IMG/VR virus record: IMGVR_UViG_3300034198_007412
Span: 1-43,721 of that record
Reading direction: 5' to 3' (one strand)
Length of the DNA stretch: 43,721 nucleotides
DNA from: a virus
Part shown: positions 3,053 to 41,500 of the stretch, one piece after another
How positions within the stretch are numbered: the stretch's first letter is position 1
How the letters are laid out: every line of letters starts with the position of its first letter
Program-made: the position numbers and the translations under genes
The notes under the pieces: model-generated
Seen by the model: the letters and a program-made list of their open reading frames with translations, nothing else
Told to the model about the DNA's origin: nothing
Databases searched by the model: none

Positions 3053-3203
3053 GTTACTGCGCCACAAACTAGAATTGAACCAAACGCAAATGGCTGAAAA
3101 ACTTGGTATATCGCTTGCAACTTATGGTCTGTATGAGCGCGGAAAAACTATGAGTAAAACCGTTAGATTACTGGCTGAAACTATGAGCGCGGCTCTGGGG
3201 TGA
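3033..3203 (+). CDS. XRE-type HTH regulator, short
   Basis: 56 residues: a classic Cro/CI helix-turn-helix (ELKLLRHKLELNQTQMAEKL, then LGISLATYGLYERG) occupying almost the whole protein. It binds DNA, probably as a dimer, and ends the small-gene run, a common place for an autorepressor of the operon. The last 23 bases overlap, on the opposite strand, the end of the VirE-like gene. Start ATG at 3033 with a weak AAGG site upstream. Confidence 0.7.
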   Translation: MTHKELKLLRHKLELNQTQMAEKLGISLATYGLYERGKTMSKTVRLLAETMSAALG

Positions 3204-4446
3204 AAAACTTTAGCTGTCCGTTGGAGCGTTTTTCTTTGCTAAAGTCGTTAGAGTTTAATTTTCTGACAACTTCAGCTATTTTCCTTGTTTCTTTTTGGCT
3301 GATGTTCTTTAAACCTATATCAGCCGCTATGACTGTGGAGGTTTTCCAGTCGTATGCCATTGCATCACCCCAATTATAAAACGATAAAATCATTTCTTCT
3401 ATTGGGTCAATTTGCATATGCTCCATATTTATTTCGTCTACAAGGCGTTTTTCTTCGCTAGTCAAATGCGGTGTTTCTTGACAGTTTTCAATTAAATTAT
3501 GCACCTCAGCCCATAATTGCTGCATATCAATCTTATGATAACTGTTAATTTCTGTACATTGAACAGTAAAAAATCGCCTGTTACCTGTAGGATCATGCAA
3601 ATAGATAGCCTCATTCACACTTGCCGCCAATACAGTGCGCCTTGGGTAAAGTTGGTCAGTAGTAGCATACGGGCGGCGCAATATGTCGCTGGATGATGTT
3701 ATAAAAGCTTTTAGCGCATCAACGTCTGAACGCCTGAAGGTTGAACCGATTTCGCCTAGTTCGACAATCCAATACCTAATCACTTGACTAACGCTGTCAC
3801 GATTGCGCGGGTCAACGTTAGCGTCTGTTCGGATAAGGTTAGGTTGGTCACATAGCTTTCTAAACCACCACGTTTTGCCTAAGCCTTGCGGCCCTTGAAG
3901 CACTAAACAGCCCGGCGAGTCATAGCCATCGTGCATTGCCATGTACATAGCAGTAATAAGCCAACGCCTTATAAACATGTTCTTAGCTTCTTCGTTCTTA
4001 GCTTTGATAGTGCCGCATAGCTCGTCAATGCGGTTTATACCATCCCACTTTTTAGAAGTCACCCACTGCAATACGGGGTTGTACTGGTTTGCATCACCTA
4101 TATAGCTAATGTATTCCTTATAATGCGCGGTAGGTAATTGAACCTCAGCCATGCGAGAGGCAACACGAGCAAGGCTGGCAATATCTGCGTTATCTTGGCT
4201 GAATTGCTCGTCCGGTATGATGATTTCGTATTGCTTTGATATTACATTATAACGGCAAGTAATGCCGTGAAAGTCTAGCAGATTGCGGAGGTTTTCAATG
4301 CTGGCAATAGGGGTTTTATTACCCATTTGCAGCATAGGGAAAGTTTTTTCCATAGCCGTTTGTGACGTGTCATCGTCTAATTCTGCTGGTACAGACTTGC
4401 TTGCTTTCGTCACTCGACCATCCCCCGATGAATCTGGAGCCGACAC
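3181..4446 (-). CDS. VirE/VapE-type helicase-primase ATPase
   Basis: A virulence-associated E family protein (PF05272 type), the replicative helicase of many phages and satellites. It has the family lead-in (VLQWVTSKKWDGINRI, about 125-140), a P-loop GPQGLGKT (185-192), a Walker B-like WIVELGE (226-232) and the conserved NEAIYLHDPTGNRRF (278-292). As annotated it starts with GTG at 4446, without a ribosome binding site and inside a 16-bp RNA stem. A properly initiated ATG lies at 4532 but stops after 10 codons. A 9-bp repeat (AATTAGACG) at 4519-4511 and 4382-4374 brackets a 128-bp insertion; joining the repeats would restore a start running MNNSQLDDDTSQT into this protein. The true N-terminus is therefore uncertain. 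Confidence 0.8.
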   Translation of the reverse strand: MSAPDSSGDGRVTKASKSVPAELDDDTSQTAMEKTFPMLQMGNKTPIASIENLRNLLDFHGITCRYNVISKQYEIIIPDEQFSQDNADIASLARVASRMAEVQLPTAHYKEYISYIGDANQYNPVLQWVTSKKWDGINRIDELCGTIKAKNEEAKNMFIRRWLITAMYMAMHDGYDSPGCLVLQGPQGLGKTWWFRKLCDQPNLIRTDANVDPRNRDSVSQVIRYWIVELGEIGSTFRRSDVDALKAFITSSSDILRRPYATTDQLYPRRTVLAASVNEAIYLHDPTGNRRFFTVQCTEINSYHKIDMQQLWAEVHNLIENCQETPHLTSEEKRLVDEINMEHMQIDPIEEMILSFYNWGDAMAYDWKTSTVIAADIGLKNISQKETRKIAEVVRKLNSNDFSKEKRSNGQLKFFTPEPRS

Positions 4447-4519
4447 TAGACGCGCTGAAAGGGAGAATCGGGAGATTGCTCGCCGCGCCTAGTGCCGACC
4501 TAAATAAAAACGTCTAATT
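4374..4519 (-). other. 128-bp structured insertion flanked by 9-bp direct repeats
   Basis: AATTAGACG (minus strand) occurs exactly at 4519-4511 and 4382-4374; the 128 bases between (4510-4383) look inserted into the helicase 5' end. The insert carries a stop codon directly before a 16-bp stem (4499-4484 with 4454-4439). Three of its pairs are G-U in minus-strand RNA, so the structure fits the transcript better than the DNA. The ends have no terminal inverted repeats. It could be a small insertion element, an intervening sequence removed or bypassed during expression, or a leader control hairpin. Confidence 0.6.
4439..4499 (-). promoter_or_regulatory. RNA hairpin covering the GTG start of the VirE gene
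   Basis: In minus-strand RNA, 4499-4484 pairs with 4454-4439 over 16 bp (13 Watson-Crick, 3 G-U), with a 29-base loop. The stem begins on the base after the stop codon of the 10-codon leader and contains the GTG start at 4446. It may hide the start codon, act with the leader peptide, or be part of an intervening sequence. Confidence 0.6.
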
Positions 4520-4532
4520 GGGAGTTGTTCAT
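4500..4532 (-). CDS. 10-codon leader or detached N-terminus of the VirE gene
   Basis: ATG at 4532 preceded by GAAAGGAAC, the phage's usual strong ribosome binding site. It encodes MNNSQLDVFI and stops at TAG (4502-4500), immediately before the hairpin. Its seventh codon falls at the 9-bp repeat shared with codons 22-24 of the helicase frame, in the same codon phase, so it looks like the original gene start separated by the insertion. Confidence 0.5.
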   Translation of the reverse strand: MNNSQLDVFI

Positions 4533-4565
4533 AAATACAAGTTCCTTTCAACAACCGTATCACCC

Positions 4566-4585
4566 ATTTACGCATAATTTACGCA
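4566..4585. promoter_or_regulatory. ATTTACGCA direct repeats upstream of the VirE leader
   Basis: ATTTACGCA occurs at 4566-4574 and 4577-4585, an 11-bp period, in the short space between the tandem-HTH gene and the VirE leader. One helical turn of spacing suggests an operator for one of the neighbouring HTH proteins. Confidence 0.4.
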
Positions 4586-4610
4586 ATCATGCAAATATTA
4601 TATTGCTAAT

Positions 4611-4961
4611 TTATTTTAACTCATTCCACCATGTTAACAATTCTTTTTTGTCGTAAAGGTGGCGATAACCCTTGCTTTTGCAAATTGGTGCGTTTGGTTT
4701 TTTCAATCGGCGCACAATTTTATTCATAGGCACGTTTAATATTTTTTCTGCTTGTCGTATGCTGATTAGCTCTTTGTCGAATATCGCCGGATTGGCTTTG
4801 TTGCAATAATCTAATACCGCTTCTTGATTATAATATTTTACCCAACTAACTTTCTTACGCTTTATGTCAACAGGTTTTGGCGCGTCTTTCATGCTAACCC
4901 AATAATGCAATCGTTGCTCTGTTATGCCAATGCCTTTTGATATTTGGCGCAATGTTTTCAT
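4611..4961 (-). CDS. Tandem HTH DNA-binding protein
   Basis: 116 residues with two excisionase/MerR-like winged helix-turn-helix units: TLRQISKGIGITEQRLHYW (about 3-21) and ISIRQAEKILNVPMNKIVRRL (about 66-86), each followed by a basic segment. Small proteins of this kind bind DNA as regulators or origin-binding factors. It sits directly upstream of the VirE-like helicase and overlaps the previous HTH gene by 4 bases, so it may help load the helicase or control the island. Confidence 0.65.
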   Translation of the reverse strand: MKTLRQISKGIGITEQRLHYWVSMKDAPKPVDIKRKKVSWVKYYNQEAVLDYCNKANPAIFDKELISIRQAEKILNVPMNKIVRRLKKPNAPICKSKGYRHLYDKKELLTWWNELK

Positions 4962-5191
4962 ACGCGCACATCCATATTGCTAAAATCCCAGTTTATCTTG
5001 CCACCTCTGGCTTTAATTGGTTTTTCAAAGATGCGATAGGTGACATCTGTATCTCGCATCAATCCCATGCGCTTTCTAGCATCCATAAAGCGATGTTTTT
5101 TGATGCCATAATGTGCTGCAATTTCCTCATCAGACATTTTTTTCATCATGCGCTTGATTTCCTTCACGCGATTTTTCCATTGCACTTTCAT
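4958..5191 (-). CDS. Small HTH-like DNA-binding protein
   Basis: 77 residues behind an excellent AGGAGG site. The N-terminal half is basic with a helix-turn-helix-like segment (SDEEIAAHYGIKKHRFMDARKR); the C-terminus is polar. Likely DNA-binding. It overlaps the upstream gene by 62 bases in another frame and the downstream gene by 4, forming a compact operon. Confidence 0.6.
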   Translation of the reverse strand: MKVQWKNRVKEIKRMMKKMSDEEIAAHYGIKKHRFMDARKRMGLMRDTDVTYRIFEKPIKARGGKINWDFSNMDVRV

Positions 5192-6307: not shown

Positions 6308-6535
6308 ATGAAAATTAAAATGAACCAGCGTGTACGCATATCAGAAGACTCATGGACAACCAGAGTTTTAGAATCTGGTGAAACATACGAATTCCCAGAT
6401 TGTTCATCGGCAGCTCGTCAAGTGCTTTGCCGCAATCAGGGCGTTGAGGTCATCGAGCCAGTGAATGAGTTGCTTGATTGTTTCAAGTCAAATGACATTA
6501 ACGAGCAGTTAGCCGCATTGGAGAAGTTGGTATGA
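6308..6535 (+). CDS. Small early protein, unknown
   Basis: 75 residues. I chose the ATG at 6308 because GAAAGGTGA lies just upstream; the in-frame ATG at 6293 is part of that site. Beta-rich N-terminus (KMNQRVRISEDSWTTRVLESGETYEF) followed by a helical acidic tail. First gene of the second rightward operon. Function unknown. Confidence 0.6.
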   Translation: MKIKMNQRVRISEDSWTTRVLESGETYEFPDCSSAARQVLCRNQGVEVIEPVNELLDCFKSNDINEQLAALEKLV

Positions 6536-6768
6536 ACCTATTTCACGGTGATTACGTTTCTGTATATACCCCACAAGGCAAGTTTATGTGCCATGGTACA
6601 ATTTGCAGTAGGTACGGTGTAAACCCTGAAGTGTACGACATACAGCCTGTAGATCATCCTAGCCTAAAGATGCGTTTGATTGGCATTAAGGCTGCACATA
6701 TCCGCAAGCCGTATGTCGCTCCGCATATGGTTGATATTAAACCAAAGCATATATTGGATTTTGTATGA
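6532..6768 (+). CDS. Hypothetical protein
   Basis: 78 residues, linked to the previous gene by an ATGA overlap. Beta-rich with a small-barrel look (FHGDYVSVYTPQGKFMCHGTI), no catalytic motif recognised. The next gene again starts with an ATGA overlap, so the three are a coupled set. Confidence 0.55.
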   Translation: MNLFHGDYVSVYTPQGKFMCHGTICSRYGVNPEVYDIQPVDHPSLKMRLIGIKAAHIRKPYVAPHMVDIKPKHILDFV

Positions 6769-14355: not shown

Positions 14356-14603
14356 AAGTAGTTCTTACTAAAAATCATTTTGCTACAGCCCACGAAGCTT
14401 TGACAGAAGCAAATAAAGTTTTAGCAGCCAATGGCCTTCCGTTATTTACATATGGAACTTGCGGGGGTGGCGGTGTAGCAGCAATTAGTTATGGAGGCGG
14501 TGGTGGCACTGGGGTTTATGGTTCAAATAAACCAGCAGGAGCCGGTGGCGTATTTACCCCAAATAAGGAATCTATTGCCTCTCGGCCGCATTTGGAAACA
14601 TGA
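14352..14603 (+). CDS. Glycine-rich small protein
   Basis: 83 residues behind GGAGG. Two short glycine clusters (CGGGGVAAISYGGGGG) in the middle and a prolonged polar tail. It overlaps the start of the TrpRS gene by 4 bases, so the two are co-translated, and it may affect that enzyme. No family recognised. Confidence 0.5.
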   Translation: MKVVLTKNHFATAHEALTEANKVLAANGLPLFTYGTCGGGGVAAISYGGGGGTGVYGSNKPAGAGGVFTPNKESIASRPHLET

Positions 14604-15346
14604 AATACGTCACAGGCATAAGGCCAACAGGAAATATTCATTTAGGAAATTACCTTGGCGCGATCAAGCAAGCAAGAAAACTTGGTTGCATGGTATTTGT
14701 TGCTGACCTCCACGGAATTCACAGCCGCGAAGAAGTTATGAAGACTGCCAAAATCCTTATTGATATTGGGTTAGATGTTGACATCCAAAGCCATTTCCCT
14801 AAAGAACATTTAATCTTGTATGCGAATTTATTGCAATATGCCAAGATAGGTCATCTTTCGCGGATGACGCAGTACAAGGAAAAATCGGAGAAAGAGGCGC
14901 AGGTAGCTTCATTGCTTACCTATCCTGTGCTGATGGCTGCCGACATATTCTATCTCCAAGGCACACATATCCCCGTAGGTAACGACCAAGTACAACACAT
15001 AGAGTTTATCAGAGATTTACATGATAAGCTTCCAGAGAAGTCTTTCCCTAAGCCGGAAGCTGTTGTAAGCGAATATCCCCGCATTATGTCGCTTACGGAC
15101 GGAACAAAGAAAATGAGCAAATCTGAACCGGATGATATGAGCAGGATTAATATTATTGATAATGCAGAAACAATCAGGCGCAAGATAATGGTAGCAAAAA
15201 CAGCTATGTCGATAGATGATGATACGCCGGAAATGGTAAACTTACGCACTATCTATAAGGCAGTTGGGGGCAAAGAAAAGCATACAAGGTTTAAGGATTT
15301 CAAAACCGAACTTGCCGATCTAATCATTGCCGAGGTGCACTCGTAG
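14600..15346 (+). CDS. trpS: Shortened tryptophanyl-tRNA synthetase
   Basis: 248 residues, clearly TrpRS: GIRPTGNIHLGNYLGA (6-21, HIGH-type HLGN), MAADI (112-116, the Asp that recognises the indole), GNDQ (127-130) and KMSKS (171-175). Bacterial TrpRS is about 330 residues. This one ends in the helix matching 'ELADAI...EL', so about 60-70 C-terminal residues, including part of the anticodon-reading region, are missing, and no frame continues after the stop. The class I core is complete, so tryptophanyl-adenylate formation is plausible; tRNA charging is uncertain. No tRNA gene accompanies it. The last 23 bases overlap a lipoprotein gene on the other strand. Confidence 0.9.
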   Translation: MKYVTGIRPTGNIHLGNYLGAIKQARKLGCMVFVADLHGIHSREEVMKTAKILIDIGLDVDIQSHFPKEHLILYANLLQYAKIGHLSRMTQYKEKSEKEAQVASLLTYPVLMAADIFYLQGTHIPVGNDQVQHIEFIRDLHDKLPEKSFPKPEAVVSEYPRIMSLTDGTKKMSKSEPDDMSRINIIDNAETIRRKIMVAKTAMSIDDDTPEMVNLRTIYKAVGGKEKHTRFKDFKTELADLIIAEVHS

Positions 15347-22935: not shown

Positions 22936-24074
22936 TATAGCCCCTTCAAGCGGCGATATTCCGCCTCTTCTTCTGGAGTGGGGGGTGCAATATTTTTACC
23001 CGTCATAATTGCAGGTTTTACGTTATAACCAGATGTATCTAGCGGTTCGCGTCCGTAATTTGCACGCAGTTCATTAATGTTCATTTTGTGCAACTCGGCA
23101 GCGCGGCGGTTAATTTGCTGCACCTCATCAAGCCTTTGTTTTACAAGTTCTTCATCGTTTAAATTAGTAAGAATTTCATTCCATGCTCTTTGTGAATCAC
23201 CTTCAGTTTGAACGCCCTTGTTCAACCTTAAAGAATCATTACGGAGTTTTTCAAGCGTGTTTTTAAATGTGGCAAAGTTACGGCTTTCTTCATTACTAAT
23301 ACCCGCGTAATTCATTGCAGCATTAATAGGATTAGCTAACGGGCCTAATACAAGCTTACCATTTTTAACTTGTGCAATAACCTGCCCTAAATCAGCATCT
23401 ATAGAATTGGCAGTACCAATAGCATCAAGACCTTCTTGTTGAAGCTTCACAGCACCAACAGGCATAGGCTTGTCAGCACCAACAGCACTAGATCCGGCGC
23501 CAGCACCTGCATTTCTTTTTGCAACTAAAGAATTATTAGCATTAATCATTGAACGCTTATAATCGTTGTCTAATTGCTGCTTCTCGTTAGCCATTTTCAA
23601 ATCAGGGCTTTCATAGCCCATCTTTTTCTTAATACCAGCAAGTTTTGTCATTAACTGGTAAGAATTAGACGGGTCAATTGGGTCAGGGTCAGCATGTAGC
23701 GCCTCTAAGAACATTGCCTTGCCATCAGGGTCATTTCCAGTAAACAACGTCAGTTTATCATCCAGCGCCTTTGCTTGCGCATCACCCATTTTTAGCTTGG
23801 CATCGTAGGCTTGCAGTAGCATCTTCTGCTGGTTTAGCTCTTGGTTTTGTTGGTTGGCTTGATATTCTTGCGCTTTACTAGCAAAGTCACCACCCCTACC
23901 GTTACCGGGGTCGTAAGAAGAATAGGCTAGTGCATTGAGCAGGTTTACAGGCAATTGTGAAGCCTGTGACACAATCGGGGAGGACACAACGGGCGTAGAT
24001 TGACGGCGCAATATATCAGTAATGCGGTCAACGCCCTGAGTCATGTCCTGATAGTTTGTGTTATCTTCAATCAT
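22935..24074 (-). CDS. Probable internal/ejection protein
   Basis: 379 residues, helical, Gln/Asn/Lys-rich, with a central coiled coil (about 75-185) and a proline-containing tail (IAPPTPEEEAEYRRL). No enzyme motif. TAATG overlap with the large ejection protein and position after the nozzle gene fit internal virion proteins of podoviruses. Confidence 0.55.
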   Translation of the reverse strand: MIEDNTNYQDMTQGVDRITDILRRQSTPVVSSPIVSQASQLPVNLLNALAYSSYDPGNGRGGDFASKAQEYQANQQNQELNQQKMLLQAYDAKLKMGDAQAKALDDKLTLFTGNDPDGKAMFLEALHADPDPIDPSNSYQLMTKLAGIKKKMGYESPDLKMANEKQQLDNDYKRSMINANNSLVAKRNAGAGAGSSAVGADKPMPVGAVKLQQEGLDAIGTANSIDADLGQVIAQVKNGKLVLGPLANPINAAMNYAGISNEESRNFATFKNTLEKLRNDSLRLNKGVQTEGDSQRAWNEILTNLNDEELVKQRLDEVQQINRRAAELHKMNINELRANYGREPLDTSGYNVKPAIMTGKNIAPPTPEEEAEYRRLKGL

Positions 24075-33188: not shown

Positions 33189-35453
33189 TTAAGCACTTCC
33201 ATCATTTCCGCCTGCCCCTGATACCTGCCCAGTTCCTCCGGCTTGCATACTAGAAGCGCCGAGTAGGGATTGTAATCCTGACATAATTTGCGCCAAATCA
33301 GGGTTGTCACTCGGTGTCGTTGCCACCCCTCCAGCAGATCCTGCTCCACCGTTGTTAGGTGTGATTGGTTGTCCTTGCTCATCCATAACCCCATTAAGTT
33401 GACCATACATAAACGCCATATGCAGCGACCTATGACGCAGCAGATTGGCAACAAGTTCTTTCTTTTGTTCGCCGCTTAATGTGGCAATTAACTGTGAAAT
33501 ACCGGGGTCGCCACCTGGTAAATTAGGCACTTCAAGCGGTGATGAGGCGTCAATAAACGCAATAAACTCATCAACTTTCCTAATGTGCTGTAAATGGTCT
33601 TGATCTGGGTATACATCAAACAATGGCCTTTTATCAGGCGGCATGAGGAAGTATGCGTTCTCAAGATTCTGGTCATCAATGCGTGCTGGTGCAGGAGGAG
33701 GCGCGGGTTTTTTAAGTTTTGCGTCAATATCCTCTGCATCCAACGATTCAAGCACGTTTTTAGAAACAAGATAGATAGATTCTTGATCTTGCTGCATTAG
33801 TGGATTGCCAATAGCAAATTCATACTCGGCTTTAGCTTTTGCAAGCTTCTGCGAACGGGTAGAATACTTAGGATCAAAAATTGGCATAACGCGGAAGTCG
33901 TCTTTGTAATCTTCGCGTGTCACTGTAATTTGGTCATCGCCAAACACAAAGTTAGCATCTTCTTGCAGGTATTTTGCATTTAGGCGGTAGACTTTTTGCA
34001 ATTCATCTTCCATTGCAACGCCCAAAAACTCCTGAACAGAGCTAAAAAGCTGCAAACCCTGTTCAATCATGGCAAGCATGGCTTCAGGCTGATAAACCTT
34101 GTCAGGCTGCCCAGAAAGAATGTCAGTTGCCGAACTAAGTCGGGAGGCAGCAGTACGCAACTGCTCAATCATCTGCATTGTCTGCTGGCTAGGCGGTGCA
34201 AAGTTTAATTGCTTAAAGTGCGCGTTAATATCTTGCACAGAGCGCGGGATTTTGATGCCTTTGCCAAGCGACATTTCAAAACTATCACCCGGTAACCCAA
34301 GCTGGTCGCTAATCAGGTAAGTAAGATTTCCAACAACCGAAAGCTCGTTGGCATCAATAAACATGCGGGAAAGTTTATTAACAGCAAGGTTAATTTTTGC
34401 CAGCAAGAAGCCAAAACCAAGGCCATAAAACCCATTTGGGTTAGGTAAAAACTGATAATGCGTAAAATATTCAACAGGTTCTTTATTATTCAGCGGTAAA
34501 CCTGTTTTATCTACTTCATAGCGAATCTGGATGCGCAGGATTTTCTTGCTTTGACGGTCAATCCACACAATATAAGGTTCTGCAATGCCATCATCATCTA
34601 AATCCAGCAAGGTATGCTGTTCAAGGATGCAGCATTGACCTGCTGATTGGTCGTAAGTACTGCTTTTTTGTACCCCTTCAGCCTCATCTGCGGCTTGCTG
34701 CATTGATGTTTGGTCGCCAAGCTGCGTATATGGCGTACCTTCGTCAATATACCATCCAGCGGCTTTTAAAATGCGTGTTTCGTTGACGCTGCACCATTTA
34801 ATTTGCGTTTTACGTTCAATTTCTTCTAAACGGCGTGGCCCAACGCCGTAAGGAACGACCAAATCTTCCGCACGCACACGCTCAATAACCACTTGTCTGC
34901 GTACAGGCGACCAATAAGTTTTGGTAAAATCACTGCCATCAAGGGCTGCGGCCATAAACATCTGGTTTTTATTTGCTTTATACGTCCGGTCAAGCACACC
35001 AAGTTGATAGGACATATGGCGGGAGATGCGTTCGGCACGTTCGCGAGCATTTGTGGAACTTTTTCCTACAGGGATGCAATCAATAAAATAACGATTTGGG
35101 AAAAACGCTTTATAAGAACGGCTTTGGAACTGGCCTACAGCTTCAGAAAGAATTGGCAGGCTTTCTTCGCTAGAACCCGTCCAAGGCGGGGTTTCCGGCA
35201 TATCGCGCTGGTAGTAAATCTCGCGGTAGGTGGTGTGCATTTCCTCCCAATCGCTACGAGATTCAAGGTCATCTTCAAATGCTTTGACGCACTCATTGGC
35301 AATCTTTGTTAATTCCTTAGCTCCTTCAGCATCTTGCGAAAGTTCTTCGGCAAGGTTTACATCTTCTGGAGCTTTTGGTTCTAGCGGTGGTGGCGCTTCT
35401 TCAGCATCCATTTGTTCAATTTCAGGATATGACTCATTTTGCTCTAATTCCAT
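33189..35453 (-). CDS. Portal protein, P22-like
   Basis: 754 residues. Acidic N-terminus, then portal-type body: WTGSSEESLPILSEAVGQFQSR, PNRYFIDCIPVGKSS, MAAALDGSDFTKTYW, and a long helical C-terminal barrel-like region with Gln-rich coils. This is the P22-type portal family (long C-terminal barrel). It forms the dodecameric DNA entry/exit ring that binds terminase and the adaptor. The start overlaps the previous gene by 20 bases. Confidence 0.8.
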   Translation of the reverse strand: MELEQNESYPEIEQMDAEEAPPPLEPKAPEDVNLAEELSQDAEGAKELTKIANECVKAFEDDLESRSDWEEMHTTYREIYYQRDMPETPPWTGSSEESLPILSEAVGQFQSRSYKAFFPNRYFIDCIPVGKSSTNARERAERISRHMSYQLGVLDRTYKANKNQMFMAAALDGSDFTKTYWSPVRRQVVIERVRAEDLVVPYGVGPRRLEEIERKTQIKWCSVNETRILKAAGWYIDEGTPYTQLGDQTSMQQAADEAEGVQKSSTYDQSAGQCCILEQHTLLDLDDDGIAEPYIVWIDRQSKKILRIQIRYEVDKTGLPLNNKEPVEYFTHYQFLPNPNGFYGLGFGFLLAKINLAVNKLSRMFIDANELSVVGNLTYLISDQLGLPGDSFEMSLGKGIKIPRSVQDINAHFKQLNFAPPSQQTMQMIEQLRTAASRLSSATDILSGQPDKVYQPEAMLAMIEQGLQLFSSVQEFLGVAMEDELQKVYRLNAKYLQEDANFVFGDDQITVTREDYKDDFRVMPIFDPKYSTRSQKLAKAKAEYEFAIGNPLMQQDQESIYLVSKNVLESLDAEDIDAKLKKPAPPPAPARIDDQNLENAYFLMPPDKRPLFDVYPDQDHLQHIRKVDEFIAFIDASSPLEVPNLPGGDPGISQLIATLSGEQKKELVANLLRHRSLHMAFMYGQLNGVMDEQGQPITPNNGGAGSAGGVATTPSDNPDLAQIMSGLQSLLGASSMQAGGTGQVSGAGGNDGSA

Positions 35454-37089
35454 TTTCCCACTCTTGTAGCGTTACGCTGTTTTGTTTGATTTGGTCTATT
35501 TTAGAATTAAACTGATCTACCCATGCCTTATACTGCTCAAAGCAAGCTCTTTGCCACGATGGAATACCGTTCCCATGAAGTACCATATTAAACCCTTGTT
35601 CGGTTTTATACAAATCATGCAGTTCTTTCGCCTGTGCCAAGAACTGCCCTTCTGTCCAAAACGTGCGCTGCTGTAGCTTTCCGCCCCATGTTTTCGCAGC
35701 CAAAGTAATTTCCATATACTTGAGATTTCCAGCATCATCGCGCTTATTCATGTCAGGCTTGGTGAAGTAGCAAAGGTCGTAACCATAACAATGGATGTCG
35801 CTAAACCCAAGGCACTCATGCAGAACGCCAAGGCAGCGAGTGGCTGTAGCGCTGCCGCCAGAAACAAGCATAGTGCCTTTGTCTAGTATTTTTTCTTCGC
35901 CTGCGCCAACCATTGCGTGATAGCCAATAACAATACAATTGTTATCTAACAACGTCTTAACAACAGACGGATCAACCATAGAAGCAACAAAATAGATAAC
36001 ATCCTTGTCTGGTGTGTTAATAAATTTCTCAACATGCTGTCTTGGGTCTAGCAATACACACGCCCAAGGCTTAATTCCCCATGCTTTCAAGCGATCAATG
36101 GCATGTTTTACCGTAACAATCTTTGTACCTTTATCCGCCCATTTCTTAACATCACAATAGGACAAGCTTTCGCCCGCGCTGCAAATAACCACGGTTTCAT
36201 CGTGCGGTTTAACGTATTCTACCCATTTTTTAATTTGTTTAAGGTTTTCTTTAATATTTGCAATGATCTGTTCATGCGGAATGCAGTTCATGGTTTTAAT
36301 AGTCATGGTATCCGCTACAATAGGGCGCTGTATTTCGTTTGGCTGCATGATATTTTGTGTTTTAGCCACATGCTTTCGGTTCCCTTTGCGGTGCTCCATG
36401 TATTTGCCTAGTTTTGATTCTGGGAACACATGCCATCCCTTTATGCCTTCTGACAAATTCAAAACGCAATAATTTTTTGCTACATGGTCGAACACATCGC
36501 AATCTGTCCAGCCAGCAAGCATAAGCACTTCATCAGTGACATAGCAATTGTGCATTTTGTCAATAATTTCTCCGCCCTTACCTTCAAGGCTAAATTGAAT
36601 AAATGAGCATTCGCTATGTGGAGCGTCAATGCGTTGTAATGTTGCGGCGTCATATATTTCTAATTTTGTAACATTTGCCCCCATATCTTCCGGCACATAA
36701 TCAGCCTTCGTAATAACATCAGCATCCAACCAAATAATGTCCGTATAATCTAATTGGCGGCAATGGTCAGCAACGCCCTTTAGCGCAAATACCTTGTGCG
36801 CAAACTTGCATACATGGAAACGGTAGCTAACATCAGGTGAGTCCTGATTGCGCTTATAAAACGCCTCTTTTTCATCCGTCCATTGATTTGATATAAAGAA
36901 CTCGCGCCCAGATTTGAGAATATCACCAATATCCTGATGTAAAAATGCCAATTCTTCTTTGCTTACCTTGTCCAATGCAATGAATAAATCCACATCTTTA
37001 GGCCAATGCTTATCAAATGTGACAATCATTTCGCGTGCGCAGACATTGTAATAATCTAACGGAAAAGTTGTGCAAACTGCTGTTTTCAT
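35434..37089 (-). CDS. Glycosyltransferase fused to DUF115 (Maf-like) domain
   Basis: 551 residues in two parts. The N-terminal 260 form a GT-A-like transferase with YTDIIWLDADV (DAD at 122-124) and WVFPESKLGKYM-type end. The C-terminal 250 match the DUF115/MptE-like fold (PF01973): TVVICSAGESLSYCDVKKW (about 300-318), WACVLLDPRQH, LVSGGSATATRCLGVLHECLG and IHCYGYDLCY. DUF115 proteins include the flagellin nonulosonic-acid transferases. The fusion is unusual, and probably links sugar transfer and acceptor handling. Confidence 0.7.
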   Translation of the reverse strand: MKTAVCTTFPLDYYNVCAREMIVTFDKHWPKDVDLFIALDKVSKEELAFLHQDIGDILKSGREFFISNQWTDEKEAFYKRNQDSPDVSYRFHVCKFAHKVFALKGVADHCRQLDYTDIIWLDADVITKADYVPEDMGANVTKLEIYDAATLQRIDAPHSECSFIQFSLEGKGGEIIDKMHNCYVTDEVLMLAGWTDCDVFDHVAKNYCVLNLSEGIKGWHVFPESKLGKYMEHRKGNRKHVAKTQNIMQPNEIQRPIVADTMTIKTMNCIPHEQIIANIKENLKQIKKWVEYVKPHDETVVICSAGESLSYCDVKKWADKGTKIVTVKHAIDRLKAWGIKPWACVLLDPRQHVEKFINTPDKDVIYFVASMVDPSVVKTLLDNNCIVIGYHAMVGAGEEKILDKGTMLVSGGSATATRCLGVLHECLGFSDIHCYGYDLCYFTKPDMNKRDDAGNLKYMEITLAAKTWGGKLQQRTFWTEGQFLAQAKELHDLYKTEQGFNMVLHGNGIPSWQRACFEQYKAWVDQFNSKIDQIKQNSVTLQEWENGIRAK

Positions 37090-38063
37090 GATGTAACCAT
37101 TTCTCCTACAAGCTGTTCAATCGTAATTGTTGGTGTCCAATCAAGGCGTTGCTGCGCTTTTTTAGCGCTACCTCTTAAGTATTTCAGATCATTAGGGCGG
37201 TAGAACTCTGGCGATACTTCAACTACTTTCACGCCGTTGACGTACCCACATTCATTAACGCCTTCGCCTTCAAACATGATGCCTTTGCCAATAACCTCAA
37301 ACGCCATACGCACAAAGTTACGAACCGTTGTTGAGTGACCTGTTGCAATAACATAATCATCTGGCATAGGTGCTTGCAGCATTTTGTGCATGGCAATCAC
37401 ATAGTCCTGCGCATGGCCCCAATCACGCGAGGCATCCAGATTGCCTAGTTTTAAACATTCTGTACCGCTAAAATTCTTTACAAAGTTGGTTATCTTCTTT
37501 GTTACAAAATCGTTGCCCCTAAGTGGACTTTCGTGATTGAACAAAATACCGTTGCATACAAATTGTTCTGCTTCATATCGAGCATTGACCCCTGCCCAAT
37601 GCGCGGCGACTTTCGAAATTGCATACGGGGACATAGGGGAAAACGGAGTTTGTTCATTGCATATTCCTTCCGCTGAATAACCAAACATCTCGCTTGTTCC
37701 GGCTTGATATATTTTGCACGCTGGTACAAACTTACGAGCAGCAAGCAGTATGTTCAGGTAGCCGCCGTAGTTTACCTGACACGTTTGCATTGCATTGTTG
37801 AACGACAGCCCTACATGCGATTGTGCAGCAAGGTTATATAATTCCTGTGGCTGCGTTTTATATATCTCGTCTGCAACGTGGTGCGGATCACAAATATCAA
37901 TATCAACAACCTTTACAAGATACTCAACGCCAAGATATTTTAGCCCCGCAAGTGAGGCATTGCGTCTTGCCCAGCCAATAACGTTATAGCCTTGGGATAG
38001 TAGGTGCTTTGCTAAGTACGCACCGTCCTGACCACACACGCCTGTTACAATTGCGGTTTTCAT
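37086..38063 (-). CDS. gmd: GDP-mannose 4,6-dehydratase
   Basis: 325 residues, an NAD(P)-binding SDR enzyme: TGVCGQDGAYLAKHLL (nucleotide-binding glycines), YNLAAQSHVGLSF, YQAGTSEMFG, SPYAISK (YxxxK), RGNDFVTKKI, RDWGHAQDYV and PEFYRPNDLKYL are all Gmd signatures. It makes GDP-4-keto-6-deoxymannose, the precursor of GDP-fucose, GDP-rhamnose and related sugars. I chose the ATG at 38063 (ATGA overlap with the glycosyltransferase stop) over the TTG at 38069. Confidence 0.85.
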   Translation of the reverse strand: MKTAIVTGVCGQDGAYLAKHLLSQGYNVIGWARRNASLAGLKYLGVEYLVKVVDIDICDPHHVADEIYKTQPQELYNLAAQSHVGLSFNNAMQTCQVNYGGYLNILLAARKFVPACKIYQAGTSEMFGYSAEGICNEQTPFSPMSPYAISKVAAHWAGVNARYEAEQFVCNGILFNHESPLRGNDFVTKKITNFVKNFSGTECLKLGNLDASRDWGHAQDYVIAMHKMLQAPMPDDYVIATGHSTTVRNFVRMAFEVIGKGIMFEGEGVNECGYVNGVKVVEVSPEFYRPNDLKYLRGSAKKAQQRLDWTPTITIEQLVGEMVTS

Positions 38064-38833
38064 AACCAAACCCCATAATCTACATCAATCGTTTCTTTAA
38101 TAGGCTCATAGTTACCATCTTCAAGCCAGCGTTTGTAATACTTCCACCATGTATCGGCGTGCATAACGTCCTTGTAATTGTCAAACCATGGCCCGCCCTC
38201 AGTATAATGCACAACCTTTGGCTTGACGTTGCTTGGTGATATGCCTTGAATCCAGTTGTAGGTAGTAGGCAATGCGCCAATCTGGAAGTCTTGCAGCCAC
38301 GCAAAACTATGCAGCCAGCTACCGGGGCGCGTTGATACCATCTCAGGCGTAATATCTTTGTTAGCTGGATGCCCACAATTGATAAGCATAAAGCTAGACC
38401 AGTTCTTGCGGTAATAGTTTGTCTGCGGCACACCATCCATTTTATCGCCCATTGGTGGCTTATGGTTATGTTTTACGCACATTATGGCGTATTTGTCATC
38501 ACAGAGCGCAAACAGGTCTTTGATATTGTCATCCCATACCATGTCGCAATCCATAAACAGCGCCCACCCCTTATAGCCCATCAACGAAGGGATAAGGAAT
38601 CTAGTATGCGAAAACTCGGTGCTAAATGGCCTGCCATCAACAAGATCCGTCCAGTTACCATCATAGGCGTTTGTCAACCAAGGGCGGGTAAACCATCCTT
38701 GCCTGCGAAGCTGTTTGTGGCATAATGGGATAATCTCTGCTTTTGAGTGCGTATTGTGTTCAATGGATTTTCGGCAAATGTCATAACAAATTTTCTCCCT
38801 AGAATCCCATCCGATATAAACCGTGTATGTCAT
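38060..38833 (-). CDS. Glycosyltransferase, GT-A fold (GT8-like)
   Basis: 257 residues from the ATG at 38833 (a longer frame reaches 38887 but overlaps the HNH end). VYIGWDSREKICYDICRKS at the start and FMDCDMVW (DxD, about 94-101) are typical of GT8-like retaining transferases; KPKVVHYTEGGPWFDNY ends the acceptor side. A metal-dependent transferase using a nucleotide sugar, probably working with Gmd next door. Confidence 0.75.
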   Translation of the reverse strand: MTYTVYIGWDSREKICYDICRKSIEHNTHSKAEIIPLCHKQLRRQGWFTRPWLTNAYDGNWTDLVDGRPFSTEFSHTRFLIPSLMGYKGWALFMDCDMVWDDNIKDLFALCDDKYAIMCVKHNHKPPMGDKMDGVPQTNYYRKNWSSFMLINCGHPANKDITPEMVSTRPGSWLHSFAWLQDFQIGALPTTYNWIQGISPSNVKPKVVHYTEGGPWFDNYKDVMHADTWWKYYKRWLEDGNYEPIKETIDVDYGVWL

Positions 38834-39308
38834 ACTACGTGCCCCCACACCACTTTGTTTAAAACGGCGCTTATTGTTGTTGGGCACACATTAAAAATCT
38901 TAGCAGCCTCTGCCCTTGTTAATTGATTTGCTGTTTCCCTAATACGCCTAACTGAATCAGCATTTAGCTTTGATTTGCCGTTATTGCTGCCGTTCCTATT
39001 TGGGTATCTACCCTTTTTCACCATATCACTCATATTATCTTTATGAGTACCAAGAAATAAATGCTTTGGGTTTACGCATTTGCGATTATCACATTTATGC
39101 AAAACACACGTTCCATGAAAATCATTATTTTCTGCTTTAGGTATATCCCATTATAAAGCATCCAAGCTACACGGTGTGCTTTCATATTCTTCTTGTTAAC
39201 CTGTATATTGCCATAGCCAAGCCTGCTTAATGAGCCAGTCCATTCCCAGCACCCGCTTTCCGAAATGATAAATTTACGCTCAAATCTTTCCTTTAATTTC
39301 ATATCCAT
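38830..39308 (-). pseudogene. HNH homing endonuclease broken by a frameshift
   Basis: The two halves of one HNH_3-type endonuclease lie in different frames. The N-terminal frame (39308-39072) has SGCWEWTG, GYGNIQV, AHRVAWMLYNG; the C-terminal frame continues VLHKCDNRKCVNPKHLFLG (the HNH motif) and an HTH-like tail (RAEAAKIFNVCPTTISAVL). Adding one base near the GGG at 39149-39147 would restore a protein of about 160 residues. Either inactivated or a sequencing error in a short homopolymer. Such genes are mobile in phages. Confidence 0.75.
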
Positions 39309-39967
39309 TCCCCCTCACGAAGCTGCGCTATAGTAAACTGCCGTTTCTCATAATACGCTTTCATATCTTCAATGTTATATGTCGAAAAATAATCATTGCG
39401 TAGCACGCCATGCGTATCGCATACAACTTTTCCTGCTTCAATTGCACGCATAATAACCATTGAATTAAATGATATGACGCTGTCACACCATGCCAATTCA
39501 TCTTCAAGCGGTATCTCGGTATCTTTTTTTCTGACGCGAATTTCAACGCCATGATCTACCAAAGGTTGGCCAACAAGCCTGCCCCAATCCTCAGGGGTTG
39601 TGAGATTGTGCATTGCTGTATATTCTGTAGGAGGGATAATAATGGTACGCTTTACATCAAAATTATAACTACCCTCAAATCCACAAGGCTCAATCATATC
39701 ATTCTTCACAACACGGAATTTACCTCCCATGCCCTTAAATCCGCTTCTATTGACGTACAAAGCGTCAAAATAGCCGTTGTCGATATAGTAATAATCTATG
39801 CCAAAATATTTAAGCAGATGAATCGCACGCGATGCGCCACGGTGGATACCATAAAAAACATGAACATCTTGCATAGGAGCAAAGTCTTTTATGTGCATTA
39901 GCTCAATGTCGGGTATAGCAGATAGCACTTGAAGCGATAGAGCGTTATCCGTGTACCAGCCGATCAT
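39299..39967 (-). CDS. Putative capsule/glycan glycosyltransferase-like protein
   Basis: 222 residues, ATGA overlap with the cupin gene and 10-base overlap with the HNH gene. Features reminiscent of GT-B or capsular polysaccharide synthesis proteins (DYYYIDNGYFDALY, VKRTIIIPPTEYTAMHN, CDSVISFNSMVIMRAIEAGKVV). No DxD. Acceptor and sugar unknown; the assignment relies on the neighbours. Confidence 0.45.
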   Translation of the reverse strand: MIGWYTDNALSLQVLSAIPDIELMHIKDFAPMQDVHVFYGIHRGASRAIHLLKYFGIDYYYIDNGYFDALYVNRSGFKGMGGKFRVVKNDMIEPCGFEGSYNFDVKRTIIIPPTEYTAMHNLTTPEDWGRLVGQPLVDHGVEIRVRKKDTEIPLEDELAWCDSVISFNSMVIMRAIEAGKVVCDTHGVLRNDYFSTYNIEDMKAYYEKRQFTIAQLREGEWI

Positions 39968-40251
39968 GGAATCCTCACAATGTCAGATTCATTACACTTT
40001 TCGCCGTACTGGATTTCTAGCACCAACGGGCGCTCTCCATTAGCGTAATAGGTATGCACCTCGCCCTTGTTAATCAGCCAAAAGTTACCCTTATGCACTC
40101 CAGTTAGGAATAGCCATAACTCGCTTCTATGATTGTGGTATTGAACTGATAACTGACCGCCAAGTTTAAAACGCAGCAGCTTTACCTTGAACTGCCGAAA
40201 ATTAAGCAGAACTAGATACCAGCCCCATGCGCGTTTTTTAAATCTTGCCAT
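39964..40251 (-). CDS. Cupin, mannose-6-phosphate isomerase type II-like
   Basis: 95 residues from the ATG at 40251 (behind AGAGGG; a longer start at 40284 lacks this). RAWGWYLVLL, LGGQLSVQYHNHRSELWLFL, then GEVHTYYANG and VLEIQYGEKCNESDIVRI match the C-terminal cupin domain of bifunctional mannose-6-phosphate isomerase/GDP-mannose pyrophosphorylases (PF01050). Metal-binding H/E residues (HNHRSE) are present. It may supply mannose phosphates for the Gmd step; overlaps the next gene by 14 bases. Confidence 0.7.
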   Translation of the reverse strand: MARFKKRAWGWYLVLLNFRQFKVKLLRFKLGGQLSVQYHNHRSELWLFLTGVHKGNFWLINKGEVHTYYANGERPLVLEIQYGEKCNESDIVRIP

Positions 40252-40648
40252 TTGCCCTCTTAACCAATTCACTACTGCTTGCAATCTTTTTGCCGCCCAT
40301 ACCCCAAAGCATTGTGATGCCTAATTCTTTACAAAGTTTCTTTTCTGGTGTATTCTTAGTAGTTCTATCGCCGCCATTAGCAAAGTAATCCGGCTTTAGG
40401 TACTTGAGCGTTTCGCATACGGTATCGTCATCGTCACGCGCAATAATAACATTATGCACGCTGCGCAATGCCAGCAATATTTCCCTACGCTGCTCCCACG
40501 GCATTACGAAGAACCCTTTCTTACGCAAAAGCCATTCATCGGTGTTAAGGATTACAACCACGTTGCCAAGGTCGGCTGCTTTTTCTATCATGCGTACATG
40601 GCCAATGTGGATAGGATCAAAACCGCCAGACACGCAGATGGTTTTCAT
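40238..40648 (-). CDS. Cytidylyl/nucleotidyl-transferase (RfaE/TagD-like)
   Basis: 136 residues of the nucleotidyltransferase fold: GGFDPIHIGHVRMI (8-21) with the HIGH-type HIGH at 14-17, NTDEWLLRKKG, and a C-terminal ISSSELVKR-like (SSSELVKRANG) motif. Related enzymes activate glycerol phosphate or heptose phosphates as CDP/ADP sugars. Which substrate is used cannot be told. Clustered with other sugar genes. Confidence 0.75.
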   Translation of the reverse strand: MKTICVSGGFDPIHIGHVRMIEKAADLGNVVVILNTDEWLLRKKGFFVMPWEQRREILLALRSVHNVIIARDDDDTVCETLKYLKPDYFANGGDRTTKNTPEKKLCKELGITMLWGMGGKKIASSSELVKRANGKI

Positions 40649-40893
40649 TGCTGAACCAACATATGATAAAGTTTAAACCCAACAAAAAACACACCGCCAC
40701 TAGCTATTGCTTTTATTAACAAAACATTTGATAAAACGTTTGCTTTACGTTCTTGTATTAATTTTTTGCGTTCTTCAGGAGAAAAATTAAAATAACCATC
40801 AGATAAAATTTTAGTTACTACGCCTTTAATCCATATCCCGCAAGGCAACCCAATAAACAAACCAAGAAAAACTGCAAGGATTGATATAATCAT
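40645..40893 (-). CDS. Two-helix membrane protein
   Basis: 82 residues with two hydrophobic helices (IISILAVFLGLFIGLPCGIWI and LLIKAIASGGVFFVGFKLYHML) joined by a charged loop. ATGA overlaps with both neighbours. Possibly anchors the glycan enzymes at the inner membrane. Unknown. Confidence 0.5.
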   Translation of the reverse strand: MIISILAVFLGLFIGLPCGIWIKGVVTKILSDGYFNFSPEERKKLIQERKANVLSNVLLIKAIASGGVFFVGFKLYHMLVQQ

Positions 40894-41429
40894 GCCACCA
40901 CCACTAGCTGAGTAAACCCACCGCCCTTAACAGGATCTTTGGTGGGCATGATGGTTATGTTTTTAAGATTGGCGACTACCTTGTTACATCCGTATTTTTC
41001 TGTATTTGGGCCATTGGTGTAGTAATCATCCAGCACAACAACTTTGCTCAAGCCCACCTTGCTGTAATCATTGGTAATAGTTTCAATGCTATGCCCACCA
41101 TCCAGAAACACAAAGTCGGCAATAGTCTTAGTCGGCAACGTTACATTAGTATCACCCTTAACAAGTACAGGAGTCACACCCGTTTCAGAACGGATATAAG
41201 CCGCGACTGCATTCATATGGTTATGGGATTTAACGTTAAACTCTTTGGAGTCTGTATCGGCGCTGGCTTCTTCAAACAGATCATAACCTGTATAGGTTAC
41301 ATCTGCATGATGCTGCTTTGCCCTATTAATCATGCGGATAGCATTGGCGCCATTCCACACGCCGATCTCGACAAGAGATTGCGGCTTGTATTTGTCTATT
41401 AGCTCTAAAAGCTCTAAGTACCTGCTCAT
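40890..41429 (-). CDS. Class I SAM-dependent methyltransferase
   Basis: 179 residues, started at the ATG at 41429 behind GTGGAG (an ATG at 41465 is in frame, weaker site). SLVEIGVWNGANAIRMI (SAM-binding, motif I), VTYTGYDLFEE, and FVFLDGGHSIETI match Methyltransf_24-type enzymes often found in sugar or O-antigen clusters. It probably methylates a sugar or glycan. Follows TerL in transcription. Confidence 0.65.
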   Translation of the reverse strand: MSRYLELLELIDKYKPQSLVEIGVWNGANAIRMINRAKQHHADVTYTGYDLFEEASADTDSKEFNVKSHNHMNAVAAYIRSETGVTPVLVKGDTNVTLPTKTIADFVFLDGGHSIETITNDYSKVGLSKVVVLDDYYTNGPNTEKYGCNKVVANLKNITIMPTKDPVKGGGFTQLVVVA

Positions 41430-41500
41430 CTCAACTCCACTTATCGTTCCTTTACATAAAAACAATAAATCTGGTATGAGTCAAGCATTATTTACTACAT

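Follow-up and report, generated by a model that had tools for sequence, protein, structure and literature searches.

A short reading frame and a long hairpin precede the VapE-type helicase gene of an uncultivated phage and several relatives and probably control helicase synthesis

The region upstream of a VapE-type helicase gene was analysed in a stretch of viral DNA of 43,721 nucleotides, which is termed the window. A segment of this region, read in a preliminary description as a small insertion, most likely belongs to a leader, that is, a short upstream reading frame (uORF) followed by a long hairpin, and this leader is kept in several uncultivated phages of a small group. The leader was kept with little conservation of the stem sequence, even where the following protein starts with another domain. 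Judged from these comparisons, the hairpin leader is probably a control on the making of the helicase. The more specific reading, that of a native 5' leader in which translation of the uORF opens the hairpin and thereby couples helicase synthesis to itself, is given about an even chance. If the leader controls helicase synthesis, it would constitute a compact translation switch on phage replication. No description of this phage leader was found in the titles or abstract openings of the literature searched.

The features of the region are given in Table 1. The well-initiated ATG at 4532 of the preliminary description was borne out by its upstream AAAGGAA and its 10-codon frame. The last G of the TAG that closes this frame is the first base of the stem. 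The stem that had been described after the TAG was also present, but its size was different: 17 pairs with four G-U pairs were found, the terminal one counted, versus the claimed 16 pairs with three. The helicase open reading frame (421 aa; Pfam PF05272, E 9.9e-48) opens at GTG 4446, within the stem, and the helicase had been thought to start necessarily at this buried codon without a ribosome site. That was wrong, because GTG 4413-4411 lies outside the stem and GGGGGA precedes it with 7 bases between them. Translation from GTG 4413 gives MTKASKSVPAELDD, which aligns with the relatives. This start yields MTKASKSVPAELDDDTSQT, and the aligned sequences were ...LKKSVPANGADRPSET in L002, MARKQGTKSVPALINDKAAET in L005 and, less closely, MAKKPGKSMAALESDTPAET in L003; L063, L004 and L066 differ from the window at these positions.

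Table 1. Positions of the leader, helicase and repeat features in the window.
Feature	Position	Strand	Basis and remarks
AAAGGAA, SD-like site of the uORF	4542..4548	-	Read directly; SD-like motif and ATG similarly placed in L002, L004, L063 and L066
uORF MNNSQLDVFI-stop, 10 codons, ATG 4532, TAG 4502-4500	4500..4532	-	Read directly
RNA hairpin, 17-pair stem, 5' arm 4500-4484, 3' arm 4454-4438, 29-base loop	4438..4500	-	Hairpin finder; comparable ones in L002, L004, L063 and L066
GGGGGA, SD-like site of the helicase gene	4421..4426	-	Read directly; 7 bases before GTG 4413
VapE-like superfamily helicase, 410 aa from the preferred GTG	3181..4413	-	Pfam PF05272, PHROG helicase families, alignment with six relatives
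AATTAGACG, upstream copy	4511..4519	-	Read directly; within the uORF
AATTAGACG, downstream copy	4374..4382	-	Within the helicase coding sequence, encodes part of ELD; aligned protein columns

With a score of 40, the stem was the highest-scoring hairpin on either strand of the window, and the best score in six shuffled windows, one strand each, was 37. When the 120-base leader was shuffled, none of 2000 sequences reached 40 and the shuffle maximum was 39. The folding energy of the whole 146-base stretch was only moderately unusual (z -1.75), with 11 of 200 shuffles as good. The second-best hairpin of the window (6635-6719, minus strand; 20-position stem, score 38) lies antisense within the open reading frame 6532-6768 of the plus strand. 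The Rfam search of 3900-5000 returned nothing above the gathering score, the sub-threshold snoR2 match at 4502-4593 having 26.5 against a cut-off of 44. A transcription terminator was rejected because neither strand has a run of T after the stem; the terminator scan covers loops of 3-8 only and is blind to a hairpin with a 29-base loop. A reading in which ribosomes shift by -1 from the uORF to the frame of the helicase was also rejected, since a TAG at 4491-4489 lies in that frame inside the 5' arm. Just before the uORF, two copies of TGCGTAAAT stand 11 bases apart (4566..4585, minus strand) and may form an operator.

The close relatives were the six loci with at least 50% identity to the helicase (L002, L003, L004, L005, L063 and L066). 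The final scan of viral contigs gave no further close relatives, nor did a scan with the neighbouring gene as the query. Genome contigs provided five loci with 30-43% identity, and 385 genomes of the class of G001 provided two matches at E up to 1e-40, both at 35% and one of them G001 itself. The uORF and hairpin layout was observed before the helicase or primase-helicase gene in four of the six close relatives (L002, L004, L063 and L066). Its order is a ribosome site, an ATG, a short frame of 10-32 codons (window included), a long hairpin and then the gene start, 13-25 bases on (window 24, L002 14, L004 19, L063 13 and L066 25 bases). The uORFs of the relatives are MINHFYSQFFMGFAQQ in L002, MKLPHFNQFMGATAV in L004, MNHQINVYLMGSHKPLCLQAHVCGCPPRYQHG in L063 and MIFPYISLDLSIITGGATV in L066, each with an SD-like motif before it, and the uORF ATG stands 91-119 bases upstream of the main start in the window and these four. 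Relative to the main start, the uORF stop ends at -86 in the window, at the stem foot; at -48, -66 and -59 in L002, L004 and L066, just past the 5' arm; and at +8 in L063, beyond the hairpin and overlapping the main start. A co-oriented frame whose ribosome would reach the hairpin near the downstream start was thus present in five of the seven sequences (the window and its six close relatives). The proteins of L004 and L066 are longer and have the helicase as their C-terminal part, the N-terminal part being primase-like in L004, and the leader lies before the start of the whole gene. The protein domain after the leader differs in two of the four relatives with the layout, and the sequences differ too. 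In the four relatives an in-frame MG or TG coincides with the stem foot or adjoins it, which is suggestive only. A palindrome, TAGCAATCTAATTGCTA, that may be a repressor operator is common to L004 (3868-3884) and L066 (256-272), where it lies upstream of the leader.

The strength of the hairpins was evaluated in the 140 bases before each start. The best score was 40 for the window, 33 for L002, 24 for L003, 35 for L004, 21 for L005, 33 for L063 and 26 for L066. These main starts were picked by hand, unlike the 97 control gene starts from the same seven sources, which were taken mechanically as the first start codon of open reading frames of at least 90 aa, with upstream windows that are possibly coding, and which gave a maximum of 29, a mean of 19.0 and a standard deviation of 3.5. 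Four of the seven starts, all four belonging to the five leader hairpins, were above every control, and L066 was exceeded by 4 of the 97 controls. Shuffled leaders reached the observed score in 0/1000 cases for L002, 1/1000 for L004, 0/1000 for L063 and 26/1000 for L066. The folding z values of the whole stretches were -1.83 for the window, -4.19 for L002, -2.73 for L004, -3.85 for L063, -1.89 for L066, -0.80 for L003 and -2.18 for L005. A short frame with an SD-like site and an ATG at -125 to -85 was found in five of the seven sequences (window and six close relatives) versus 6 of the 97 control starts, a criterion framed after the five cases were known. L005 has neither such a hairpin nor a qualifying uORF; in L003 the hairpin folds at another place and a qualifying uORF was likewise not found.

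A strict scan for the full unit in 126 kb (window and close relatives) retrieved the window, L101 (the same as L063) and L103 (the same as L004), each at this gene only; the scan misses L002, in which the main SD-like site is too close by rule, and L066, with a stem below 30. In 615 kb of more distant loci, partly overlapping one another, one match was retrieved, in L037. There, 1844-1907 of the plus strand has the same layout of SD-like site, uORF, hairpin and start before a 348-codon frame, with a score of 31, and may be a chance occurrence.

Whether the stem is better formed in RNA was judged from the two strands. The stem score for the coding and opposite strands was 40/27 in the window, 33/30 in L002, 35/26 in L004, 33/18 in L063 and 26/22 in L066. 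The coding strand was the better one in five of five, as is expected for RNA. On the coding strand the five stems had 11 G-U pairs and 0 A-C mismatches, a count biased by the finder, which scores G-U as a pair; the strand comparison is fairer, and the L003 row, in which arms of unequal length produced mismatches, was left out. When the five leaders were aligned jointly with MAFFT, their arms did not come into register. The gapless alignment of the L004 and L066 arms contained two compensated pairs and two changes on one side only, and in L066 two pairs were broken. In these arms 93% of the cells were paired versus 39-61% when the arms were slid, with a weak shuffle control (124/500).

A leader hairpin that controls the gene, the third suggestion of the preliminary description, fits this comparative evidence; the mechanism proposed for it is drawn from sequence comparison. 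By its nearness to the helicase start the hairpin would hinder the loading of ribosomes, and a ribosome translating or terminating on the uORF would cover or melt the 5' arm. The translation of the helicase would thereby be coupled to that of the leader in an RNA-unfolding manner, and helicase output would be kept low or tied to leader translation. According to the stop positions, at the foot, past the 5' arm or beyond the hairpin, the ribosomes on all five uORFs would come as far as the stem. Lying outside the stem, the main SD-like site was only partly paired in the predicted folds, with uncontrolled mean values of 0.63, 0.64, 0.38, 0.53 and 0.51 in the five leaders. Its pairing with the 5' leader was strong in L063 only, and sequestration of this site by the uORF, clear in L063 only, was rejected. 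The partial pairing of the main site counts against coupling. L003 and L005 also do without the layout, and in a random library coupling was lowered by structure that immediately followed the upstream stop, according to a review (PMC12548453).

A fair rival, although a rather improbable one, is that the stem serves for processing by RNase III or for stabilisation of the 5' end and would thereby mature or protect the helicase mRNA, the short frame being incidental or minor. Phages use such stems as processing sites. Literature searches on this use gave no paper whose title or abstract opening describes the present leader. The position of a long stem just upstream of a replication gene is consistent with processing or stabilisation, as are the polarity towards the coding strand in five of five and the arms that vary in sequence yet stay paired. 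However, this explanation does not account for the frames with an SD-like site and an ATG that accompany the hairpin, whose excess over the controls was measured with the post hoc criterion given above.

The hairpin may also act in the DNA, for example as a replication origin or a single-strand priming hairpin beside a replication gene, which is considered distinctly unlikely. The adjoining helicase gene and the AT-rich sequence with the repeated TGCGTAAAT just upstream would suit such an element. The pairing does not: the G-U pairs are on the coding strand, A-C mismatches are absent there, and that strand is the better one throughout the five leaders. Moreover, short frames with SD-like sites accompany the hairpin.

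That ribosomes pass the hairpin without normal initiation, either by bypassing as in gene 60, with the uORF peptide joined to the helicase, or by a shunt with reinitiation, is very doubtful. The TAG of the window stands at the stem foot, like the uORF and stem of the plant pararetrovirus shunt in the portion of the source drawn on (PMC5902531). In L002 and L063, the main start repeats the ATG codon that adjoins the stem foot. However, no uORF codon recurs in the helicase frame of the window within 30 bases of its start, so that no matching take-off and landing codons are available there, and in the other four leaders they were inconsistent. The gap of 86 bases in the window is also larger than in gene 60, for which a gap of about 50 nt and a drop in sliding processivity beyond 56 nt are given in the part of the account cited (PMC11194080). 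Furthermore, the uORFs of the four relatives terminate downstream of the 5' arm or of the whole hairpin, and the main start of the window has an ordinary SD-like site before it. The bypassing of the preliminary description is hence unsupported, failing on both codon match and gap length. A bacterial counterpart of the viral ribosome shunt, in which a ribosome that terminated at the stem foot would be passed across the hairpin to the helicase start, has only a very slight chance of being correct. If it were true, a phage replication gene would be made by a programmed jump and not by fresh initiation.

The original reading, in which the 128 bases are a mobile insertion or an intervening sequence and the 9-base repeats a target duplication at its borders, is close to negligible in probability, and both insertion and splicing are rejected as already contradicted. 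Its basis was real: exact copies of AATTAGACG stand on both sides of the segment, and their coordinates, minus strand and 137-base offset were reproduced. A third copy is far off, at 23663 on the plus strand. Such repeats turned out to be common in this DNA. The window has 85 pairs of exact direct repeats of at least 9 bases with a start spacing of 10-200 (67 pairs when 18-24 kb is left aside), versus a mean of 33.9 (range 26-44) expected from shuffled sequences, and a second 9-base pair (4566/4577) lies in the same 700 bases. Hence, a 9-base pair flanking a segment is unremarkable here. The alignment with relatives showed that the segment between the repeats encodes KSVPA, a helicase sequence common to the window, L002 and L005; L003 has KSMAA at this position, and L063, L004 and L066 differ there. 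As KSVPA lies between the repeats and the second repeat falls in aligned columns, no insert can have its borders at the repeats. A mobile insertion would leave the gene continuous in relatives, with borders at the repeats; instead, the residues common to L002 and L005 are inside the segment. Joining the repeats, once taken to restore a natural N-terminus (MNNSQLD-DDTSQT), would remove native protein, KSVPA included. The segment is present in single copy in its own record, and a search of the phage collection gave two weak matches only, covering 12% and 6% of the 401-base query. Four relatives also have comparable hairpins at the same place in dissimilar sequences.

The distribution of the leader was further compared with six named phages (Mano, Arya, KA2-1, Mica, FoX3 and Alexa), 6 of 648 matching records, with near 40% identity. 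The gene in these phages is a 2.3-kb primase/helicase. It overlaps the preceding gene in Mano, Mica, FoX3 and Alexa, and in Arya and KA2-1 the two genes are about 10 bases apart, which leaves no space for a separate leader. The best hairpins before the annotated starts scored 27 in Mano, 17 in Arya, 21 in KA2-1, 31 in Mica, 23 in FoX3 and 18 in Alexa. In Burkholderia phage Mica (L093), with its helicase start at 1376, the overlapping upstream gene contains a 16-pair hairpin about 60 to 5 bases ahead of that start. Its score exceeds those of the 97 controls, and a strong hairpin alone is therefore no proof of this leader. The other distant loci had no hairpin score above 26, with starts assigned by a crude rule, which failed to find the annotated start in three of the six named phages; those six were scored at the annotated starts. 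The full layout appears so far to be confined to a small group of uncultivated phages. The portal protein of the window had matches of 24-31% to Caulobacter, Pelagibacter, Roseobacter and Alcaligenes phages among 18 records, in which cyanobacterial phages were also named; these matches weakly hint at a proteobacterial host. Two other parts of the window were recorded. A class I tRNA synthetase of the Trp/Tyr family (14600-15346, plus strand; 248 aa, Pfam PF00579, E 1.7e-41) is presumably short for a complete enzyme. A block of sugar and small-molecule genes (35434-41465, minus strand) lies between the portal and terminase genes and comprises MptE-like, GDP-mannose 4,6-dehydratase, possible glycosyltransferase 8 (below cut-off), cytidylyltransferase-like and methyltransferase genes.

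The putative leader was compared with three known systems, each as described in the excerpts available from the cited sources. T4 gene 60 is likewise a phage gene with a stop codon and a stem near the end of the upstream frame (PMC11194080). It differs in that its upstream part has 46 codons with a KKYK signal at 14-17, whereas the frame in the window has 10 codons; here, matching take-off and landing codons are absent near the window start, the gap is longer, and an SD-like site and a start codon of its own follow the stem. The shunt leader of CaMV and RTBV resembles the present one in that a short uORF ends before the foot of a strong stem, the main start lies beyond the stem, and the sequence of the stem arms is unconserved in both (PMC5902531). 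Eukaryotic scanning 40S subunits operate in that system, whereas an SD-like site precedes the main start here, and in the four relatives the uORF stops only after the 5' arm or after the hairpin. In phage f1, the upstream frame is a phage gene with a spacing of -4 nt, unlike the leader frame of 10-32 codons and the putative coupling described here. The likeness to f1 is that a hairpin, long in both cases, ends shortly before the downstream gene: gene IX is coupled to the translation of gene VII, and in the RNA-unfolding model upstream translation reaching part of the hairpin is thought to permit downstream initiation (PMC12548453).
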